NCBI GenBank assembly: GCA_964017185.1
Contig: OZ024874.1
Coordinates: 36,060,721 to 36,124,720 of the forward strand
Length of the DNA stretch: 64,000 bases
Direction: 5' to 3'
From: Rugalucina vietnamica
Lineage: Eukaryota; Mollusca; Bivalvia; Lucinida; Lucinidae
Shown: positions 5,755 through 64,000 of the stretch, piece after piece
Layout: every line of letters starts with the position of its first letter
Position numbering within the stretch: the first letter of the stretch is position 1
Translations under genes and position numbers: made by a program
Notes under the pieces: generated by a model
Told to the model about the DNA's origin: nothing
Databases searched by the model: none
Seen by the model: the letters and a program-made list of their open reading frames with translations, nothing else

Positions 5755-7500
5755 CCCAGGGGCAACGATCGCTCACCTGAGAGTCAACAAGTACAGTCAT
5801 TGGACAAAGTAATTGGGTTTTTTACCATATATGGGTATGGTGGCCATCTTGGTCATGTGAAAACCTACTTACATCAGCAGAAGAGCTCTTGTCTGGATTG
5901 TGTATCCTCTTTTCTGCCATTTTGGTTCACTTGAAAAAATCATCTAACAAGGTCAGAGTCCTATAATGACCCCCGGGGTGGGGCCATATTTGACCCCAGG
6001 GGCAAGATTGGCAGGATTTATGTAGAGCTCCACATGACAATGTTGTATATCAAATATACAAGCTTTGTGTCATTTTGTTGCAGAGAAGATTTTTTTCATA
6101 TATTTCCATTATAAGTCTATGGTAGATAATGACATTCCTGGGGCGTGGCCTGTATGGACCCCAGGGGCACCGTTGGCAGCCTTTATAAAGGAGAGTACTA
6201 TACATTGGTGAACACAACATATGAAAGCTCTGGACCATATGGTTTCGGATAAGAATATTTTTTTTTATGTTTTTCCCATGACGCCCCCGGGGCGGGGCCC
6301 GTATGGACCCCAGGGGCACAGTTGGCAGGATTTATGAAGAGGACCACTATACATTGCTAAAAACAAAATATGAAAGAATTGGGCCTTGTGGTTTCGGAAA
6401 AGAAGATTTTTTAAAGTTTTGAAAGCTCTGGGCCTTGTGGTTTCAGAGAAGAAGATTGTTATATGTTTTTCCCATGACGCCCCCGGGGTGGGGTCTGTAT
6501 GGACCCCAGGGGCACGGTTGGCAGGATTTAAAAAGAGGACCACTATACATTGCTACTGACAAAATATGAAAGCTCTGGGTCTTGTGGTTTCGGAGAAGAA
6601 GATTTTTTATGTTTTTCCCATTGTAAGTCTATGGGAGCTAATGACCCCCCCCACAGGGCGGGGCCATTTTTGACCCCAGGGGCACGGTTGGCAGGATTTA
6701 TAAAAAGGACCATTATACATTGCTACACACAAAATATGAAAGCTCTGGGCCTTGTGGTTCTGGAGAAGAAGATTTGTTTTTATGTTTTACCCATGACTCC
6801 TCCGGGGCGGGGCCCGTATGGACCCCAGGGGCACGTTTGGCAGGATTTATAAAGATGACCACTATACATTGCTACACACAAAATATGAAAGCTTTGGGTC
6901 TTGTGGTTTCGGAGAAAAAGATTTTTTAAAGTTTTTCACATGACGCCCTCGGGGCGGGCCCGTATGGATCCCAGGGGCACAGTTGGCAGGATTCATAAAG
7001 AGGACCACTATACACTGCTACTGACCAAATATGAAAGCTCTGAGCCTTGTGGTTTCTGAGAAGAAGATTTTTTTTATGTTTTTCCCATTGTAAGTCTATG
7101 GGAGCTAATGACACCCGGGGCGGGGCCATTTTTGACCCCAGGAGCATGATTGGGAGGATTTATATAGAGGACCACTAAACATTTCTACATACAAAATATG
7201 AAAGCTCTGGGCTTTGTGGTTTCAGAGAAGAAGATCTTTATATGTTTTTTTCCATTGTAAGTCTATGGGAGCTATCCGTTGCCATTGAAACCACAGTTCT
7301 AATCCGACCTGGCCCAAAACCTTTCACAACCTTTCCCCCTCCTCAATGATGCTTTATATAAAATTTGTTCACGATTGGCCTTGTTGTCTTAGAGATATTT
7401 ACGTTTGAAAATGTGAACGGACGGACGGACGCACGCACGGACGGACGCACGGACGGACGCCGGCTCAACCACCATACTATGACCTGTCGCACGTTAATGA
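5755..7500 (+). mobile_element. Pearl-like element with eight core repeats and ACGG tract
   Basis: An entry segment (5755-5990) is followed by core units, each starting near GACCCCAGGGGCA, at about 5992, 6157, 6306, 6502, 6672, 6821, 6967 and 7134. Spacings are 165, 149, 196, 170, 149, 146 and 167 bp. Each unit carries AAAATATGAAAGCTCTGGG and ends with either a short or a long linker. After the last unit comes an ACGG/ACGC microsatellite (7413-7462) and a tail near ACCTGTCGCACGTTAATG. A flank, tandem core units of about 150-170 bp and an ACGG-type microsatellite is the layout described for bivalve pearl elements, which are thought to be non-autonomous. I see no coding frame; open frames here are repeat artefacts. 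Confidence 0.7.
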
Positions 7501-13342: not shown

Positions 13343-14212
13343 TTAGTAAATCCTTATACCCATGAGAATCTCATGAAGAAACTCGTAACTGCATTTCGCG
13401 ACCTCTACGTAGATTTCTTCGCTGAGTGGTGTATCAAACTTCAGTCCCAGTACTTTAACTAAAAAGCCTTCTCTTTGACACTGTAATAATTTGCATACCA
13501 ACTCGTAACTCACTTGTTGTAATGTATATAAGAAAAAGTTTGTATATGGACGCAAACAAGGGCACTCCGTGACGCTATGAAGCAATATGTCTCTAGTGTC
13601 AGTTTCACATTGCCTCAACAGTGGTGGTTTAGTCACCCACATTTTCGCTATCGAGATCAAAAACGTTTATTACGTAGAACGCTGGTGAGTGGCGAATTGT
13701 ATATTGGTGCGATTTGTATGGAATTATGTAGCTGGCGGAATCGCGTGAAATCTGGATCGTTTTGCACTCTTTGGAGCCACGCTTGTTCTTCCTTCTGGAA
13801 AACAGTTTTATTAACAATCCGCTTCCATTGACGTGCAGTGGGAAAATCCAGTGTATTCACAAGATCGCGTAGATAATGACTAAGACCATATTTCTTAAGT
13901 ATGACCCATATATCCGCCATAAACCCAGTCTGTGTATCCATCAAAGAATAAGAAAAGTCGAAGATAAAATATTTGATTTGGCAGGGAGGTGGATGGTAAT
14001 ATACACAGTTTCCCAAGGAAAAGTAGTTTACGGCGATCAATTTCCGCTGTCAATTTGTACAAGCCTAACATTGACTCGCACATGTCAGACCTCACATATG
14101 GATGGAATCCTTGAATTTTCTTCGAAATGAAATGTGTTTTATTTATTTCCGTGCAGTTACTTGTAGTAAGGTTAGACCATAGCTCGCATCCGTATATTAT
14201 CGTGGGTATCAC
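13343..14212 (-). pseudogene. LINE ORF2 C-terminal region, frameshifted
   Basis: Minus-strand frames 13895-14212, 13657-14040, 13629-13817 and 13343-13660 continue the reverse transcriptase upstream but lie in different frames. Visible are IIYGCELW just after the RT, SMLGLYKL and RRKLLFLGKL, then a Cys/His segment near 13.58-13.62 kb (CETDTRDILLHSVTECP) like the zinc-ribbon tail of many APE-type LINEs. At least two or three frameshifts. No clear poly(A) or 3' repeat tail before the arm at 13034. Confidence 0.65.
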
Positions 14213-15776
14213 TACTTTTTAAGCTGGCAGATACTTTCGGATTTAGTCCACATGGTCTAACGCCATGACTAAAGAACGAGTTTCTGCCTTTTATACAAGC
14301 TTCTTTAATTGTATTATTTAGCGATCGTGATGATTCCTGGAGTATACCAAGATGCAATGCCGACTGTTTTTGGGGAAGCTCTCTTTCACCCAGTTTAATG
14401 TGAATGCTTTGATTTATTGTTTTAAGTCTTTTACCGAATATAGTCACAAAGGTCTTTTCGGGGTGAATTTCAAAGTGATTTTTACATGTATATACGAATG
14501 CAATGTTCACGATATCCTGTAGTCTATTAGGTGAGTTAGCTAGGAACACCGTGTCATCTACGTACGCAGAACAGCTCGAGTCTGTTGGACCAATACATGA
14601 ACCTTTGCGACTGTTTTGAATTTCATCGAGAAGATCGTTCATAAACACAAGATATAGGAATGTGGACAGGACGCTGCCTTGCCGCACACCCTGTTTCACT
14701 GGGAACCAGGACGAAAGTTTCCTGTTTAAACTAACGCAGCTTTCTATGGAAGTGTACATATCAAGGATTATACGCCATACTTTGCCACGGATGCCTAGAT
14801 TACACAGTTTGACGAAGAGGGCGCTGTGCCATACAGTGTCAAATGCCCTTTTTATATCAACAAACGCGGCGTATGTACAGCTCCCGCGATCGATGTTATA
14901 TTGAATCACTTCCTGGACAGTATATGCCGTGGTGATACAGTTTAGCTGTGGCTGGAATCCTTGCTGCTGACTATTAGGGAATTTTATGTTTGCTGATTTA
15001 AGGAACGATGTTATCCTGGTGTACAGCAGTTTTTCATATATTTTAAGCATAACGGGTAACAACGTCACTGGTCTATAACTATCAATAGAGCTTTTACGTT
15101 TGTTATGACCTTTATATATTGGTATTATTACTCCTTTCCTCCAAGAGTCTGGGATCTTTTCAAGTTCGATAATTTTATTAAACAATTTACACAAGACTTT
15201 CTTTACAATGTCACCACCGTGTATAATATGCTCGTTTTGCACGAGATCCCACCCAGGAGCCTTTAGCGTTTTTAGGCTTGAAATAGCTGATGCAAGTTCA
15301 TCTTCCATTATTTCGTCATCTAAAATATCAATATGTTCGTTTGATGTGTTAGCAAACAATGGATTAAGTGTCGTCTCTGTTTCATGAGTATATGATTTGT
15401 CAAACTGGTGGTTATCTTTTGGGATCGATAAGTCTCTATAGAATGATTCAAAAGCCGATAAAACCATGTTAGGATGAGAAATTTGGCAGCTTTCACTTTG
15501 TTTTTTGCTTTTCCCCTTCGCGAGTTTCCAGAATAGCCTTATGTCGCATTCAGCAGCTTGTTCAATATCTCTGATTGACTTGTCTATGAATTCCTCGTTC
15601 GCTGAACGTTGCGCCGTTCTGAATTCCTCCTTCGCTATTTTGTAATTCCTGAATAATACATTGTCCAAACCCCTTGGCCTTCCAGCCTCAAGCCACTTTA
15701 CTCGTTCTTCGCGCTCTCTTGTGTGTAATCGCTTCAAGTTTTCGTTCCAGTATGGCTTTATCTGCTTACTAACCCT
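14172..15776 (-). pseudogene. LINE reverse transcriptase domain
   Basis: A minus-strand open frame of over 500 codons. In order it shows an N-terminal linker; PDSWRKGVIIPIYKG; SYRPVTLLPVMLKIYEKLL; the first catalytic block FVDIKRAFDTVWH (about residue 290); QGVRQGSVLSTFLY; and the second catalytic block AYVDDTVFLA (14553-14564), with all three aspartates present. This is the RT of an APE-type non-LTR retrotransposon (I, Jockey or CR1-like). It is in the same frame as the endonuclease just upstream, separated by one TAA (15777-15779). It loses frame after 14172. The RT core looks recent in spite of the damaged ends. Confidence 0.9.
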
Positions 15777-24490: not shown

Positions 24491-24534
24491 AATAAAAATG
24501 AAAACTGAGAGCCTTTAAGAGCAGCGAACGTATA

Positions 24535-25506
24535 CTACTCAAAGTTTGATAAACATCAAATTTTTTATTTTTGTTCACAGAACAAACTTGTAATCTAACA
24601 CCCGAAATTTTGCTATAGATATGATGCAATACCAAAACTGTGCAAACATTCCATCTTTTTTCGCGTTGCATGCCAGCGCTTTTCGCAGACTTGCAGAAAC
24701 GATGGAAACTCCCTGAAACTGAAGTTGCCACTGTTGCATACCCTAGCCAATTCTGTCATTCATCTCCTCTTACTGGTTCAATCAACTGCAAAACTGTTTT
24801 GATATCGAAATGTCGACAGTTTTGTGTCTAAAATGCACTTTTGGAAAATTTCAAAAATCTGTGATTTTTGGTTAATCACGATTTTTTACCAAAAGATTAA
24901 TTTTCGCTAATAACGTTGCCCTTTGGGCTTCGAGTATGGAACAGAAAACCGATTTGAGCTACGGGCATTGGTTTCGATTTTACAGCGTTTTAAAACATTT
25001 GTCATTTGACTGAACGTAATTTGTATTATGTGATTAAACATCTGACAACAAATTTTAAAAACGCTGGTTTGAGCTAACCAAAGTTCGTATTCAAAAACGG
25101 TTTTCATGCTCACCATGCAAAGGACAACATTTTTAAGCGGAAAAAAAGTTTTTGGTAAAAATCGTGTTTTAAACCAAAAATCACAGATTTCTGTAAAAAA
25201 TTTCAAACGTGCAGTTTAGACACAACAGTATCGACATTCGATTATCAAAACAGTTTTACAGTTGAATGAACCAGCAAGAGAGGATGAATGACAGAATTGG
25301 ATAGGGTAGGCAACAGTGACAACTATAAATTCAGGGGGTTTCCTTCGTTTCTGCAAGTCTGTGAGAAGGGCTCGCAGACAACGCGAAAAAAAAAAAAAAG
25401 CACGGTGATGGTGCTGCTATATATCTATAGCAAAATTTCGGGTGTTAGATTACCAATATGTCCTGTAATAAAAATAAAGTTTTGATGCTTATCAAAGTTT
25501 GAGTAA
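24535..25506. mobile_element. Foldback element with ~350-bp inverted arms
   Basis: Left arm about 24535-24890 and right arm about 25150-25506 are reverse complements: TACTCAAAGTTTGATAA against TTATCAAAGTTTGAGTAA at the tips, and shared inner blocks such as CCTAGCCAATTCTGTCATTC. Flanks are GAGCAGCGAACGTATA and TATATTAATGAGAATGG. At 26601-26640 the same flanking sequence is continuous (GAGCAGTGAACATATTAATG), a natural empty site, implying a TAT/TATA target duplication. No transposase; open frames are in the arms. Confidence 0.85.
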
Positions 25507-26150
25507 TATATTAATGAGAATGGGGATGGGCCATACCATGGTTTCGGCTACCAAAGCCTCTTCAGTGACCCTTTAGATATGGCAACATGGAGCCAAAGTG
25601 AACAGATAAGATATAAAGGTTTGATCCTTTGGAAGCAGCAAAAACATTCAAAGGGAGATAGTATGGATTATTACCCAACCTACTATATACAGAGTAATAG
25701 CATATTTTTCGCTATTTCATGAGTTGGCCTCTGACCGGTCCATAGTTTTGGATATAACATGGGACTATACCATGGCCTGGTACCCAGCTCAAAAGATAAT
25801 ATACAATGGCCTGGTACCCACCTCAATAGATATCAGAGCTATAGCAATGTTTCACATGTTCACCAGTTGACCTCAACTACGCATGCCCAAACTGGTCCAT
25901 AGTTTTGGATATAACATGGAACTATACCATGGCCTGGTACCCAGCTCACAAGATTTTATAGAATAAGCTGCTAGATGTTATAAAATAACTAAATCAGAGA
26001 GTAGATAGGTGATAATTGAAAACACAAATGCAGTTGACGATTTTGGACAGACTGAACAGCTTTTTGATAGCAAATTGTCGACTTCTTCAAGTCCAATTTG
26101 ATTTTGAACTGGTATGAAGATCAGACGAATTCAATCGCCATGGTCTCTAG
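25507..26150 (+). repeat. Unique flank with ~164-bp tandem duplication
   Basis: TCCATAGTTTTGGATATAAC through CCATGGCCTGGTACCCAGCTC occurs at about 25738 and 25902. A third GGCCTGGTACCCA lies at about 25808. The rest is unassigned. Confidence 0.7.
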
Positions 26151-26720: not shown

Positions 26721-27076
26721 TACTCTAAGCAGCAATTTCTCCTCAGTGAAAAACGGTCAACGTAGTAGGAAATTTGCTGCAGCGATAAACGGTCCAAGAT
26801 AGCAGCAATTTTGCTGCAGCGAAAAAAAAAAAAAAAAACGGTGAAGTTGGCAGTAAATTTTCTGCAGCGAAAAACGGTCAAGTTTGCAGCAATTTTGCTG
26901 CAGCAAAAACGGTCATGGTAGCAGCAAACGTGCATGTTAACAACAAGTCTGCTACAACAGGCAAGTTAGCGGTAAATTTGCTGCAGCGAAAAACGGTCGT
27001 TAGCAGCATTTTCTGCTGCAGCGATAAACGGTCTAGCTAGCAGCAATTTTGCTGCAGCGAAAAACGGTCAAGTTAT

Positions 27077-27515
27077 GCACAAGTCACTTGGGGCCGGGGA
27101 ATATCGGGCGTTTAACTTTTTAGTTTTAAAGCCCCGCTAAAAGCCCGGCACTGCGGGGTCAGATTTGTGGCACAATCCCTGCTGAAAGCTGCGGCTCCCC
27201 GGCGGCTGACAATAATATGGAACAACAGCTGGTTTTGTTCTAATAAAACATAAATGTACATGAGAAACGTGAATTTCTACGTGTAAATGTACAGGTACAT
27301 TTGCAAATTAAATAAGGACCAAAAATTTAATAAAACGTTAGAAAATACAACTAGAATCTAATTTGAATTAATGTGATCTTATATTGGATGGAAATTAAAA
27401 CCTCGGCACATCCCCAGCAATGCCGGGACTCAAAGGTTAAACCCCGGTACATTAGCCCCGCTGCCTTCCCACTATCTCCCGACCTGAAGAAGCCGTGGAT
27501 ACAAATGAAGTGTGC
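27077..27515 (+). mobile_element. MITE with GCACCAGTCATTTGTATCC termini, copy 1
   Basis: Same family as 50368-50832, opposite orientation. GC-rich subterminal blocks (GGGGCCGGGGAAT; AAAGCCCCGCTAAAAGCCC) flank an AT-rich middle with CAAATTAAATAAGGACC. It splits one GCAGC unit: removing it and one TA gives GGTCAAGTTAGCAGCAA, the array consensus, which supports a TA target duplication. No transposase. Confidence 0.8.
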
Positions 27516-27766
27516 ATTAGCAGCAAAGTCGCAGCAGTGAAAAGCGGTCAGGTTGGCAGAAAATTTCGCTGCAGCGAAAAAACGGTCAAGCAACAGTTTT
27601 GTAGCAGCAAATTTGTAGCATCAATTTTGCAAGTTGGCAGCAATTTCGCTGCAGCGAAACACGGTCAATTAAGCAACAAATTTACTGCAGCGAAAAACGT
27701 TAAATTCCATGTAGCAGCAAGTTGCTACAGCGAAAAATTTTGTCGAAGATTTTGTTTCGTTTTAGC

Positions 27767-28180
27767 CTGGCTGTAAGCGCCATAGAAAACGATGATGAAT
27801 GCCGCAAGCAGAATTTTGCTATCCAACCCAGGACCCAACGTCAACTTATTGTTCTTTCGCAGTTTGATCTGGCTGTAAGCCCTATAAAAACGATGATGAA
27901 TGTTGTAAATATAATTTTTAACCTGTGAGCCGAGTTATGGACCGAAATTCCTTGCCAGCATTAAGAGTAAAAAAAAACTGACGACATTTTGTTTACGTTT
28001 TATTCTGGCTGTGTGCGTTATAGAAATCAATTATGAATGCCGCCAACATTACTTTTCGAATCTATGGCCCTAATTATTGACAAACATTTTCTGCCGGTAG
28101 TAAGAGTGAAATTTTTGTTTTCGTTTTAATCTGACTGTGAGCGCTAGAAAAAACGTTGATGAATGCCGCAAACATTTTTT
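27767..28180 (+). repeat. Second array unit, four tandem copies
   Basis: Copies begin near CTGGCTGTAAGCGC at 27767, 27869, 28005 and 28131 (spacing 102, 136, 126 bp), each followed by a GAAAACGATGATGAATGCCGC-like block. Inverted relatives occur at about 29190-29240 and 30845-30900. Confidence 0.7.
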
Positions 28181-28732
28181 TTTTATTTTCTAATGTGCTC
28201 AGAGCTGCAGCAAACTTGCTGCTAACTTGACCGTTTTTCTTCGATGCAGCAAAATAACTGCTAACATAGCAGTTTTTCGCAGCACCAAAATCGCTGTTCA
28301 CAGCCTGACTTAAACGAAAACAACCGGAGACAAATTCGCTGCGGCAAAATTGATACTGACTTTACCGCTTTTCCATGGAGCAGGTTTGCTGCTTAATTCT
28401 TAATTAACCCTTTTTCGATGCATCAAAATTTAGCACACTAAAACAAGACCGCTTTTCACTGCAGCAAAATTGCTGCTTACATGACACTTTTTCGCTGCGG
28501 CAAAATTACTGCTAACATGACCGCTTTTCGCTGCAGCAAAACTGCTGTTCACATTCAGAGTGAAATGAAAACAATCGGAAACAAATATTTGCTGGGGCAA
28601 CATCGCTGCTTACTCGACAGTTTTTCGCTGCAGCAGATTTGCAGCTAACTTAGCCATTTTTGCTGCATTAATTTGTTTGCTAACATGACCGTGTTTCGCT
28701 TCAGCAAAATTACTGCTAACATGACCGCTTTT

Positions 28733-29037
28733 CAATGCCTCAAACAATGTTTTCTGGTGTACCGAAAAACTTCCGTGTTACATGTAACAGCAATTTTCCA
28801 GCAGCGGAAAACGGTCATGTAAGCTGCAGGTTTGATGGCAAAAATGGTTATTTATATGTTAGCACCAATTTTGATGCAGCAAAACCGGTCAAAAAATTTG
28901 CAGCAAACCTGCTGCAGCAAAAAATGGTCATGTCAGCTGCAATGTTGCCTCAGCATTTTTTGTTTGTCTGCGATTGTTTTCGTTTCAGTCTGGCTGTGAA
29001 CAACAATTTTACACCAGAAAACATTGTTTGAGGCATT
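28733..29037. mobile_element. Small TIR unit inside the hairpin array
   Basis: Perfect or near-perfect 28-bp inverted ends: AATGCCTCAAACAATGTTTT at 28735 and its complement ending about 29037. The interior consists of array-type GCAGC words, so this may be a mobile subunit of the array or a boundary between inverted halves. Confidence 0.6.
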
Positions 29038-29700
29038 CGTCAATGTTTTCTATAGCCACACTCACAGCCACACTATAACTAAACAATTTGTCGACAAAAT
29101 ATTTTAGTATTTTTCACTTTTACTGCTGGTTTGGGAACTTTTGTCTATTACTTGTGTCTTAGGCGGGATGAAAAGTTCTGTTTGCAACATACATCATCAT
29201 TTTCTACAGCGCTCACAGCCAGACAGAAACAAAAATAACCGTAAACAAAATTTGCTTCAGCAAAACTGCTGCTACATGTTAAAGTACCATTTTTCGCTGC
29301 AGCAAAATTGCTGCTAACTTGATCATGTATCGCTGCAGTAAAACTTCTGCTAACATGACCGCTTTTCACTGCATCAAAATTGCTATTTACAGCTATACTG
29401 AAACGAAAACAATCGGGAAAAAATATGCCGAGGCAAAATTGCAGCTGCTAACTTGATCGTTTTTCGCTGCAGCAGGTTTGCTTCTAACATGACTATGTTT
29501 ATGTTTGCTGCATCAAAATTGCTGCTTACATGACCGTTTTTCGCTGCAGCAAAATTGCTGCTAACCTAACATTTTTGGCTGCATCAAAATTGCAGCTAGC
29601 ATGACTGTTTTTCGCTGCAGCAAAGTTGCTGCCACCTTGACCGTTTACCGCTGAAGCAAATTTACTGCTAACATGACTTTTTTCACTTTTACTACTAGCA

Positions 29701-51934: not shown

Positions 51935-52720
51935 AGACTTTAGCCAACGGTCCTCCAGGGTGGACAATAAAATTCATCAATCATGTCATCGACGCTATTA
52001 TGCCATCGCCTGCAGACCCACCTGGCTGCTGTCTTCTGCACTTTCTCCACCTTTTTTGTCTCGGTTTCATTATAGGGATGCCAAATAGGAGCTGCATACT
52101 CGAGCTGGGGGCGAAACAATATTTGGCATGCAACTTCCTGCTTATGCCGAGGTGCAAGTGCCAAACTGTGCCAAAGAAAACCCAATGTCTTAGTTGCTTT
52201 TGAAGAGATTTCAGAAACATGTTGACCCCATTCCAAGTTGTCAGTAGTAGTTAATCCAAGGTATATAGCGGACTGAAGAACACTGTTTCAGTGTTTGATG
52301 CAGTGAGTAGTTAAAGTGTCTTAATTGCTAATGAGGTGCCGGGTCACCCTCATTGACATTTGGCAACATTAAATTTCATTTGCCAATCGGTCTCCCATTG
52401 TGCTAGGCTATTCAGGTCATCCTGTAAGATCTGGCAATCTGTGAGGGCTTTTATATTTCTATACAGAACACAATAATCGGCAAAGAGGCGAACGGGTAAC
52501 CTGATATTGTCCAGAAGATCATTTATGAAAATCAAGAAAAGGACCGGTCCCAAGATATCTCTGATAGCTTTTTGGACATGTGCTCTGAACCGTTTGTAGT
52601 GGTTTTTGATATCAGGGTTGCTTGACCTGCGAGCACGAATATTTACTAATGAGGCGTTTGATCGAGCTATCGATCCATGGTTGGTCATTTTTGTCGGAAT
52701 AAACCTTTCAATAGCCACTT
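51935..52720 (-). pseudogene. LINE reverse transcriptase, internally deleted
   Basis: Minus-strand frame 52350-52718 carries MAIERFIPTKMTNHGSIAR and YKRFRAHVQKAIRD, then jumps straight to ILGPVLFLIFINDLLDNI and RLFADYCVLYR. The first catalytic block of the RT is therefore deleted and the second reads ADYC where ADDC is expected, losing a catalytic aspartate. Frame 51940-52236 supplies the C-terminal part (TKTLGFLWHSLALAPRH; FRPQLEYAAPIWHPY). Typical of an abundant APE-type LINE family (CR1/Jockey-like). Dead copy. Confidence 0.85.
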
Positions 52721-60760: not shown

Positions 60761-60805
60761 ACCGAAAAAAGGCAAATTTTCTTTTTATTTTATACTTTTT
60801 AACAT

Positions 60806-61601
60806 TGTTATATATAATTGATTCAATAATATTGATTCTTTTAAAAGCTATTACTTATAATTTATATATATATAATCAAAGGGGAGTAACCCAATTAATT
60901 AATATATATTTCTTTTTATGTTTCTACAATTTATTATCTAGAACTTTGTAGAAGAATGTCATTGATTATTTTTATCACTGTTATATAATTTAGAAGTATA
61001 GAAAATTCTATGAGCACTTTGTGGATAATTCCAGATGAAAATGGAGTGAGTGTTTTTTTTTTACCATAAGTTAAAAATATATTTGGACTATGTATACTGA
61101 GATCTCGAAGGGTCTAGTGGACTCTCGTTTAGTCTTGATGGTCGTTGCGGCCTTGAATTCTCTCTGGAGAATTCTAAATTCTCTTTGGAGAATTTAAAAG
61201 AACTATCGTTTAGTTCGTTTCTTTTCTAGAGAAAAGTTTATTATATCATTCTCTAGAAACCTGGAGAATTTCCTTAGATGTATAAATATAGGTCCCAATT
61301 CAGTCGTAGGTATTCAGAAATTTGAAGTGATTTAAAGTATATAATTTTGGTTGTTTCACTAGTGTTTTGTGTGGATTAAAATATACATGTGCTCATATTC
61401 TGGTTACTGGATTGTGGACTTACATTTGAGGGACAAGGACTTATTTGACATTAACTTTGTAAGTTATTTATTTATTTATTTACTTATCTGTTTGTTTGTT
61501 TTTATGTATTTGCAGCATTTATTTGTTTGATTAAATATTGTTAAGTTTAAATTACTTGGTTGTTTTTCGCTGTACCTGTCTAGTTACGCTAGGTCGTAAC
61601 A
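60806..61601 (+). mobile_element. 5' LTR of a Gypsy-type retrotransposon
   Basis: Delimited by inverted tips TGTTA (60806) and TAACA (ending 61601), the usual TG...CA rule, with a primer-binding-site-like sequence 5 nt downstream. It contains TATAAATA (61281-61288), TCAGT initiator-like sequence (61300), an ATTAAA polyadenylation-type signal (61530) and clustered GGAGAATT/ATTCTCT motifs (61158-61272). The flanking AACAT may be one copy of the target duplication. The 3' LTR lies outside the window, so the boundary rests on structure, not on comparison. Confidence 0.65.
61158..61304 (+). promoter_or_regulatory. Putative LTR promoter with GGAGAATT palindromes
   Basis: CTCTGGAGAATT and TTCTCTTTGGAGAATTT repeat as inverted pairs, resembling heat-shock-type nGAAn arrays, upstream of TATAAATA and a TCAGT initiator-like site. 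The TATA-to-initiator distance is a little short (about 20 bp). Confidence 0.4.
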
Positions 61602-61606
61602 GATTT

Positions 61607-61626
61607 TGGGGGCTCTGAGCCGGGAT
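61607..61626 (+). other. Putative primer binding site
   Basis: TGGGGGCTCTGAGCCGGGAT lies just after the LTR. It resembles the tRNA-Pro-type site of retroelements (TGGGGGCTC...CCGGGAT) with a few differences in the middle. It would prime minus-strand DNA synthesis. Confidence 0.6.
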
Positions 61627-61701
61627 TGAACATTTTGTGCACCTATTTTATTCTGAATTTGAAAAGATATTTATTGTTTGTCATACCAGCAAAAAGCAAC
61701 C

Positions 61702-64000
61702 ATGTTATTCAAACTTGAAGATTTCATTGCTGCGCCTTCTCAAGAGCTGTTAAACTTGGCCAAAAAGAGTGATCTTTTAGACATTGCTAGTCATTATAGC
61801 ATACCTGATGTCAAAACATCTATGTTAAAACGTGAAATTAAGAATGTTATCATTCAGTTTCTTGTTGATGAGGAATTTTTTGAACCCTCAGCTACATCTC
61901 TAATTATGGTCTCACAAACCGACATACAGTTGAAAGAGTTAGAATTAAAAAGGCATCTTGAACTGGAAAAATTAAGATTAGAATTTGAAGAAAAAAGAAG
62001 GGCAGATAAGGAAGAAAGGGAAGAAAGAATGCAAAAAGAAAAGTTAGAGCTTGAAAAACAAAAGTTAGCATTTGAAGAAAGGGAAAGAGAAAAACAAAGA
62101 GAGTTAGAAGAAAGGCTTGCAAAGGAAAAAATAGATATGGAAGAAAGGGAAAAGGCAAAGCAAAGGGAAATGGAAGAACGAGAGAAGGAAAAACACAGAG
62201 AAATGTTAGAAAGAGTAGAACTTGAAAAAGAGAAAATGCATTATGAGATAAAAATGAAAGAGCTTGAATTAAGCAGTAAATCAATGCCTCCTGTGTCTTT
62301 TGATCCTAGTAAAGTATTTGATGTTACAAAACATATCAGGCTCGTTCCTCCATTTCAAGAAAAAGAGGTAGATAAGTATTTTTTACATTTTGAGAAGGTA
62401 GCAGAAAATTTGAAATGGCCAAAAGAGCATTGGACCTTGCTTCTACAGAGTGTTGTTATTGGTAAAGCTCGAGAAATTTACACTCAGCTTCCACTTGATC
62501 AAAGTTCAGATTATGACACAGTCAAAAATCTGATTCTTAAGGCTTATGAGTTAGTACCTGAAGCTTATAGGCAGAAATTCAGAAATTGTAGGAAAGAACA
62601 TGACCAAACCCATGTAGAATTTGCTAGAACTAAGGAGCAATTATTTGATAGGTGGTGTTCTTCAAAGGATGTAAAGTCTGATCATGCAAAATTAAGACAG
62701 CTCATGCTTGTTGAAGAGTTCAAACGATGCATACACTCTGATGTCAAATCTTTTCTTGACGAAAGGGAAATAGAAACTTTAGATGTAGCAGCTCGTTTAG
62801 CTGATGATTATACTTTGACTCATAAGGGTTCTTTTATTAACAAAAGGCTTATTTACAAACCACATTACAAGAAGCCATATTATAGAAAACCTCCTTACAA
62901 GAAACCTTTTAACCCTCAATTTAAACCTAATACACCTCAGTCAAAACCATTTAACCCTCAACAGAGAAATAATTCTCCTCAACCTAATCCACAACCACAA
63001 GCTGGACTAACAGCTGATAGTTCCAGTCCTTCACATAATCCTAAAAATAAAGATACTAGTGAAAACAAAGGTCAAAGATCCTCATACTCACCCCGGCTGT
63101 TTTGCAATTATTGTAAAGGTGACGGTCACGTCATTTCTGAATGTGAAACTTTGAAAAGAAGAAAAGAGAGACAAAATCAAAATAATTCTAGACCAACAGG
63201 TCTTACTTCTTTAAGGTCAAAACCACAGTCGATTATTCAGGATGAAAATCCTATTTTGGCCAAAACGTCTGCGACTGATTGTATTATGGAGATTTATGAA
63301 CCATTCTTATCAGAAGGTTTTGTGTCACTTACTAGTGATTCTGCCCAGTCTACCCCTATTAAAATCTTACGAGATACCGGAGCTTCTCAGTCTCTTATTT
63401 TAGCAGATACCCTGCCTTTTTCCGAGAAGACTTCAACTGGGACAAGTGTCCTTATTCAGGGAGTAGAGTGTGGATTTGTTAATGTACCGCTCCATAACAT
63501 TTATTTGTCTTCAGACTTAGTTTCTGGTCCTGTGGCTGTAGGTATTAGGCCTTCTTTACCTTTTAAAGGTGTTCACTTGCTATTAGGCAATGACTTAGCC
63601 GGAGATAAGGTTGTGGTAAACCCACTTTTGACCAATACACCTTGTGAGGATCAATTGCCTGATCCCATTGAGCAGGAAATTCCTGATCTTTACCCTTCAT
63701 GTGCCGTTACAAGGGCTATGGCAAAAAAAGTCAAATTGAATGATGGGATACAGGATATTGACTTAACTGACACTTTTATAGGTCAGTCTTTTCATGATGA
63801 GATTTCAAAATCTCTTTCTTCAAGTCAAACTGACTTCAACAATCAAAGGTCAGACAATGACCTTTCACCTTCAATTTTTGACCAAGGTCACGACCAAATG
63901 TCAAGGTCACAACTTTGTCAAGAACAGCACAGTGATCCTGAAATCTCGCCTTTATTTGAAAGGGCTTTAGATGAAAATGAAATTTCTCAGGTTCCTGTTT
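61702..64000 (+). CDS. gag-pro: Gag-protease polyprotein of a SCAN-bearing Gypsy element (partial)
   Basis: Open from ATG 61702 to the window edge (766 codons, no stop). Residues 1-60 are helical with LLNLAKKSDLLDIASHY. Residues 74-193 are a very charged coiled coil (EEKRRADKEEREERMQKEK style). Residues about 222-372 form a capsid with a SCAN-like core: YRQKFRNCRKEHDQTHVEFA and LRQLMLVEEFKRCI. A Lys/Pro/Tyr-rich linker (382-435) follows, then a CCHC knuckle (CNYCKGDGHVISEC, 468-481) and an aspartic protease with DTGAS (558-562) and LLGNDLAG (627-634). The SCAN fold of vertebrates is thought to derive from Gag of Gmr1-like Gypsy elements; this fits that lineage. Gag and protease share one frame. 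Integrase and RT should lie beyond 64000. The intact frame suggests a recent insertion. Confidence 0.9.
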   Translation, partial: MLFKLEDFIAAPSQELLNLAKKSDLLDIASHYSIPDVKTSMLKREIKNVIIQFLVDEEFFEPSATSLIMVSQTDIQLKELELKRHLELEKLRLEFEEKRRADKEEREERMQKEKLELEKQKLAFEEREREKQRELEERLAKEKIDMEEREKAKQREMEEREKEKHREMLERVELEKEKMHYEIKMKELELSSKSMPPVSFDPSKVFDVTKHIRLVPPFQEKEVDKYFLHFEKVAENLKWPKEHWTLLLQSVVIGKAREIYTQLPLDQSSDYDTVKNLILKAYELVPEAYRQKFRNCRKEHDQTHVEFARTKEQLFDRWCSSKDVKSDHAKLRQLMLVEEFKRCIHSDVKSFLDEREIETLDVAARLADDYTLTHKGSFINKRLIYKPHYKKPYYRKPPYKKPFNPQFKPNTPQSKPFNPQQRNNSPQPNPQPQAGLTADSSSPSHNPKNKDTSENKGQRSSYSPRLFCNYCKGDGHVISECETLKRRKERQNQNNSRPTGLTSLRSKPQSIIQDENPILAKTSATDCIMEIYEPFLSEGFVSLTSDSAQSTPIKILRDTGASQSLILADTLPFSEKTSTGTSVLIQGVECGFVNVPLHNIYLSSDLVSGPVAVGIRPSLPFKGVHLLLGNDLAGDKVVVNPLLTNTPCEDQLPDPIEQEIPDLYPSCAVTRAMAKKVKLNDGIQDIDLTDTFIGQSFHDEISKSLSSSQTDFNNQRSDNDLSPSIFDQGHDQMSRSQLCQEQHSDPEISPLFERALDENEISQVPV

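Follow-up and report, generated by a model that had tools for sequence, protein, structure and literature searches.

The window analysed here is a stretch of 64,000 nucleotides (C6:36060721-36124720 in an assembly of 1.09 Gb and 47 contigs), and at its 3' end lies the first part of an LTR retrotransposon that continues into the 8 kb directly 3' of the window (designated L009; L-labels denote loci fetched from the genome). The parts of this element located within the window were as follows:

60802..60805, + strand: 5' target-site duplication, ACAT (4 bp); the 3' copy at L009:3320-3323 abuts the 3' LTR
60806..61601, + strand: 5' LTR, 796 bp, TGTTA...TAACA; partner at L009:2525-3319
61607..61631, + strand: primer binding site (PBS), tRNA-Pro-like
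61702..63999, + strand: Gag-protease part of a single frame, in frame to L009:2300 (1533 codons total)
61930..62280 (limits approximate), + strand: charged N-terminal Gag region, candidate coiled coil, read from sequence alone
62308..62556, + strand: putative capsid N-terminal domain, placed by alignment with L033
62557..62826, + strand: SCAN domain, capsid C-terminal domain (Pfam; PDB SCAN chains via profile A1)
62845..62892, + strand: 48-bp in-frame piece, basic linker after SCAN, missing in 4 of 7 copies compared
63103..63144, + strand: CCHC zinc knuckle, by motif (Pfam zf-CCHC E 0.06, below cut-off)
63349..63597, + strand: aspartic protease, by motif, DTGA at 63373 (Pfam RVP E 0.042, below cut-off)
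63913..63999, + strand: linker into the integrase zinc-binding domain, the domain itself running from L009:93 on

The ATG at 61702 opens a frame of 766 codons that reaches the window end at 63999, in agreement with the earlier note on this DNA, which had described more than 760 open codons; among 200 base-shuffled versions of the last 5 kb, the longest open run reached 179 codons. The same frame remains open for 766 further codons past the window (L009). The earlier note had named a stop or frameshift directly past 64000 as a possible refutation. None was present, but the element has lost motif B of its reverse transcriptase (RT) and the greater part of RNase H.

Gag residues 286-375 matched the SCAN domain (PF02023) in Pfam with E 4.3e-11 (42.9 bits, cut-off 27), and the capsid piece searched alone gave E 2.3e-12, bearing out the SCAN-like core that had been proposed for this Gag. 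Capsid, CCHC and DTG had all been described as intact; SCAN is over its cut-off and both motifs are present, but RVP and zf-CCHC fell below theirs. The putative N-terminal capsid domain was placed by means of L033, a locus of a related family in the same genome in which Retrotrans_gag lies immediately upstream of SCAN, at the position corresponding to 62308..62556. The charged region at 61930..62280 is repeat-like DNA; of the 7 copies compared, 2 had 12 additional bp there. The tail at 63760-63999 had no Pfam match when searched alone, the single Gag piece returned only chance-level heparanase matches from the PDB (E 1.9), and a single-sequence AlphaFold model of the capsid piece was too poor for use (mean pLDDT 43.9). 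The tile 62606-62905, which covers the C-terminal portion of SCAN together with the basic linker, showed 97-99% similarity to other copies, and the tiles downstream of it at 62906 and 63206 showed 99-100%.

Elsewhere in the window, an open run of 534 aa was found on the minus strand at 14172-15776 with an RT match of E 1.1e-32; it is probably the remnant of a non-LTR element, and to call every other coding trace of the window broken goes too far. A weaker RT trace lies at 52350-52718, also on the minus strand (E 5e-5, below cut-off). About 1 kb at 24531-25510 aligns to its reverse complement at 78% and is a possible fold-back element, and self-comparison located clusters of imperfect repeats at 5970-7274 and 26728-29687.

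The 3' LTR anticipated past position 64000 was found at L009:2525-3319 and is 99.6% identical to 60806-61601 (2 transitions and 1 indel). Each LTR begins with TGTTA and ends with TAACA, and the whole element, about 6.5 kb long, is bracketed by ACAT. With 2 transitions in 795 sites (K 0.0025) the pair upholds the proposal that the element is young; at an assumed rate of 1-5 x 10^-9 per site per year, not measured for this host, K corresponds to an insertion age of roughly 0.25-1.3 million years. The PBS, which we take to be of the tRNA-Pro type, was present in 17 of 20 other copies (shifted by two bases in the cut of one), and the remaining 3 carried a shorter variant with GTCCGGGAT. The element has the paired LTRs, PBS and short target duplication of Ty3/gypsy elements and also their coding parts (capsid, CCHC, protease, integrase and RT), with protease and CCHC recognized by motif alone.

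Pfam searches of pieces beyond the window placed the integrase (zinc-binding H2C2 8e-23, rve 8.1e-13, Integrase_p58_C 5.4e-13) upstream of RT (RVT_1 8.4e-20). This is the domain order of the Gmr1 clade, as the earlier note had expected. In the PDB the RT best matched that of Ty3 (4ol8, E 6.3e-41), but the alignment fails across the motif B stretch (Ty3 VMPFGLVNAPSTF), whereas that of the sister copy L017 passes through it (KVMPFGMKNSPATFQ); L017 has a canonical RT and RNase H (RVT_1 3.8e-36, RT_RNaseH 1.1e-34). In the window element motif B has been swapped in frame for the block QFRNKLKALKCCLV, leaving the region 5 residues shorter. The motif A Asp and YIDD are kept. RNase H is mostly deleted, its conserved end lying past a stop in another frame, and no RNase H match was obtained from Pfam in this element. 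An intact, autonomous element would have an RT with motif B and a complete RNase H; lacking both, the window element is not intact, contrary to the earlier description, and judging from this damage its RT activity has probably been lost. The full layout is LTR - PBS - Gag with SCAN-type capsid - protease - integrase - damaged RT - remnant RNase H - LTR.

The lesions were followed in 21 copies, namely the window element and 20 others (ranks 2-20 and 24 of 40 scored), which are a non-random sample. Motif B was replaced in 14 of the 21 (13 of the 20 others; hereafter altered copies) and canonical in 7. RNase H was mostly deleted in 12 (11 of the 20 others) and whole in 8, and L027 ends near the end of this domain. 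Both lesions occurred together in 11 copies, the RT lesion alone in 3, the RNase H lesion alone in 1 (L022) and neither in 5; L027, with a canonical RT and a broken end, was counted outside these combinations. The motif A Asp, which aligns with an Asp of Ty3 RT, was changed to His in 7 of the 14 altered copies and was Asp in all 7 canonical copies, and 5 of the 7 copies with His had a 4-bp duplication and an LTR K of at most 0.0051. An open frame of at least 1500 codons was present in 10 of 19 copies (L029 not counted). Exact searches of the genome located the altered block (24-base pattern) at 213 sites and the canonical sequence (35-base pattern) at 156, numbers that do not give a true ratio because the two patterns differ in mutation tolerance; reversed controls of both patterns had 0 sites. 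Among the matches listed (100), the altered-block sites were spread across contigs C1-C7.

A measurable LTR pair was available for 18 of the 21 copies, and divergence within it, counting substitutions only, ranged from 0 to 0.51%; the value is less reliable for L020 and L021 (one LTR in common) and L025 (incomplete pair). A measurable pair at no more than 0.51% was found in 13 of the 14 altered copies. Target duplications were 4 bp long in 13 of the 21 copies (12 different words, ATTT twice) and 5 bp in L019, and were not judgeable in L023, L025, L026, L027 and L029; 11 of the 14 altered copies had a duplication of their own (10 at 4 bp and L019 at 5 bp). L020 and L021 (C2:3583190-3597832), which have canonical RT, form an LTR-internal-LTR-internal-LTR array inside one AATG duplication. 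The LTRs of canonical copies were up to 99.7% identical to those of the window element. When 300-bp tiles along the element were compared, segments differed in their similarity between copies, giving a mosaic pattern.

Among altered copies dN/dS was 0.81 in RT, 0.30 in the capsid and 0.225 in integrase, against 0.24, 0.20 and 0.30, respectively, among canonical copies; the contrast is only suggestive, because pairs are non-independent and conserved gag and integrase may have been imported by recombination, which may lower the capsid and integrase values of altered copies. In NC-PR the values were 1.34 in altered copies, based on few changes (24 synonymous and 104 nonsynonymous, summed over 91 pairs), and 0.57 in canonical copies. 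L020 (capsid and NC-PR) and L024 (integrase) were left out of this sample, as their matched stretch was of the wrong length.

SCAN was searched for across the genome and 150 of 1268 candidates were scored. The genome holds at least 150 SCAN loci: all 150 listed were above the cut-off, and none of those listed had a stop inside the match. The capsid of a sister family is 86% identical to that of the window, and two further SCAN-Gag groups that were read, to one of which L033 belongs, have 26-32% identity to it; these two may serve as outgroups in tracing how the vertebrate SCAN domain arose. An alignment was made of eight SCAN-Gag sequences, seven of which, without the fragment L032, were combined in profile A1. 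Against the PDB this profile matched the vertebrate SCAN domains of ZNF24 (3lhr, E 1.8e-6), PEG3 (4bhx, 6.5e-5) and ZNF174 (1y7q, 0.0014), with weaker matches to the ZNF42 SCAN (E 0.21) and to one unrelated plant protein (E 0.12). In vertebrates SCAN sits in host proteins, mostly transcription factors, whereas in the window element it serves as a capsid domain upstream of CCHC and protease.

Seven SCAN-Gag units are arranged head to tail at C15:44639154-44675726 (L037-L039) with a period of 6044-6062 bases. This run was considered as a possible relative, and one unit and two flanks were read: the unit is of a sister family (capsid 85% identical) with a canonical RT, and no match to the window's LTR was found in that unit and those flanks. 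Further SCAN-Gag runs include three units at C5:67939569 and pairs, e.g. at C2:30030152 and C13:39638486.

The host was placed by its mitochondrial code. The sole genome match of COX1 was on C47 (30,680 bases), where translation under code 5 gave a full-length, ungapped match to animal COX1. Of 15 AGR codons in COX1, 7 aligned with Ser in the best PDB chain (3 of 7 AGA and 4 of 8 AGG) and 0 with Arg; AAA fell on Lys in 2 of 2 cases and TGA on Trp in 9 of 9. With codes read from the standard tables, AGR within COX1 argues against the code of vertebrates and Lys at AAA against that of echinoderms, and Ser at AGR favours that of invertebrates (code 5, used by lancelets too), in support of the invertebrate host assumed in the earlier note. 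C47 is long for an animal mitochondrial genome, which is typically 15-20 kb, and no tRNA was found in its first 18 kb by ARAGORN in its bacterial setting.

These comparisons indicate that the window very probably contains a young Gmr1-like Ty3/gypsy copy (Gmr1 by domain order) of a non-autonomous lineage, there being many young copies with a common lesion and an RT-bearing partner with similar LTRs and PBS. An intact, autonomous young Gmr1-like element would account for the 1533-codon frame, the near-identical LTRs with their target duplication, and the retention of YIDD and the motif A Asp; such an element is nevertheless very unlikely, as motif B cannot be aligned with Ty3 RT where the canonical copy aligns, and the RNase H match found at 1.1e-34 in the canonical copy is absent here. 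Hardly any weight can be given to domestication of Gag as a host gene: the long SCAN-bearing frame that might suggest it lies between LTRs inside a target duplication, the RT region occurs in hundreds of copies, and SCAN is present at no fewer than 150 loci. Assembly error as the origin of the RT block was ruled out by its recurrence at 213 places.

It is also conceivable that the copies inserted as intact elements and that the lesions are later decay, spread by gene conversion. The mosaic of segments between copies would be expected under conversion, and the head-to-tail runs of related elements are places where it could act. Against this stand the 213 sites of the altered block, the distribution of the 100 listed ones over C1-C7, and copies with their own target duplications, and we regard this account as improbable. 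The altered copies are best read as a recent, recombining lineage that is probably mobilised in trans by RT-bearing relatives. Under mobilisation in trans, altered RNA would be packaged into particles holding RT made by canonical relatives and reverse transcribed there, with template switching and from a proline-type tRNA, presumably the primer used by these elements, and the resulting altered copy would then be integrated; the Gag, protease and integrase encoded by the altered element itself may still play a part. RT and RNase H lesions assort (3 RT-only and 1 RNase H-only), which fits template switching. A more far-reaching proposal can be made tentatively, and we consider it possible but doubtful: that the RT-dead lineage outnumbers its RT-bearing helper, that selection keeps its SCAN capsid and integrase, and that both belong to a community sharing particles, in which RT-dead copies would gain by supplying their own Gag and integrase while borrowing RT, and in which frequent template switching would keep bringing the lesions of RT and RNase H into new combinations. 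The lineage represents a very recently expanding SCAN-Gag Gmr1-like family in an invertebrate genome and a natural case for asking which retrotransposon parts must be made in cis.

The kinds of element involved are already in print: Gmr1-like elements of protostomes, vertebrate Gmr elements with SCAN, and LTR elements that have retained gag but are non-autonomous. The original paper on the origin of SCAN from Gmr1-like Gag is reportedly that of Emerson and Thomas (2011). In the sources cited here, SCAN is traced to Gmr1-like Gag (PMC3424704, PMC4592553), the Gmr1 clade is recognized by an integrase that precedes RT (PMC6238403, PMC8220671, PMC3587641), and Gmr1-like Ty3/gypsy elements are attributed to Goodwin and Poulter 2002 (as cited in PMC8220671). 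The crustacean elements GyRex4 and others are there called the first Gmr1-like elements in protostomes (PMC3587641), and LGF3 of the annelid Lamellibrachia is Gmr1-like (PMC8220671). Because both the Gmr1-Gag origin and protostome Gmr1-like elements are already published, the bearing on SCAN origin claimed for this Gag stands, but is modest. In the portions of open-licence literature covered, no report was seen of SCAN in the Gag of invertebrate elements, and in open-licence literature none of non-autonomous Gmr1-like elements, both being weak evidence of absence; no relatives were found in IMG/VR, GTDB genomes or phage records at the sensitivities used.

The window element resembles Gmr1-like elements in having integrase before RT and in its presence in an invertebrate, and differs from them in the lesions of this copy (RT motif B absent, RNase H largely gone). 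SCAN goes unmentioned in the passages of PMC8220671 and PMC3587641 that were covered. It occurs in more than half of the Gmr elements of frogs (PMC4131045) and, between LTR and pol, in five zebrafish elements (PMC8672886); these have in common with the window element a SCAN that occupies the Gag position of an LTR element, but they come from vertebrates, whereas the present host is an invertebrate. The barley elements RLG_WHAM, RLG_Sabrina_A and RLC_Giselle (PMC5738225) are non-autonomous LTR elements that keep gag, and are alike in the loss of pol, a shared PBS and presumed cross-mobilisation. Compared with these, the window element keeps integrase, has an RT that is partly replaced, shows the Gmr1-type order and resides in an animal host.
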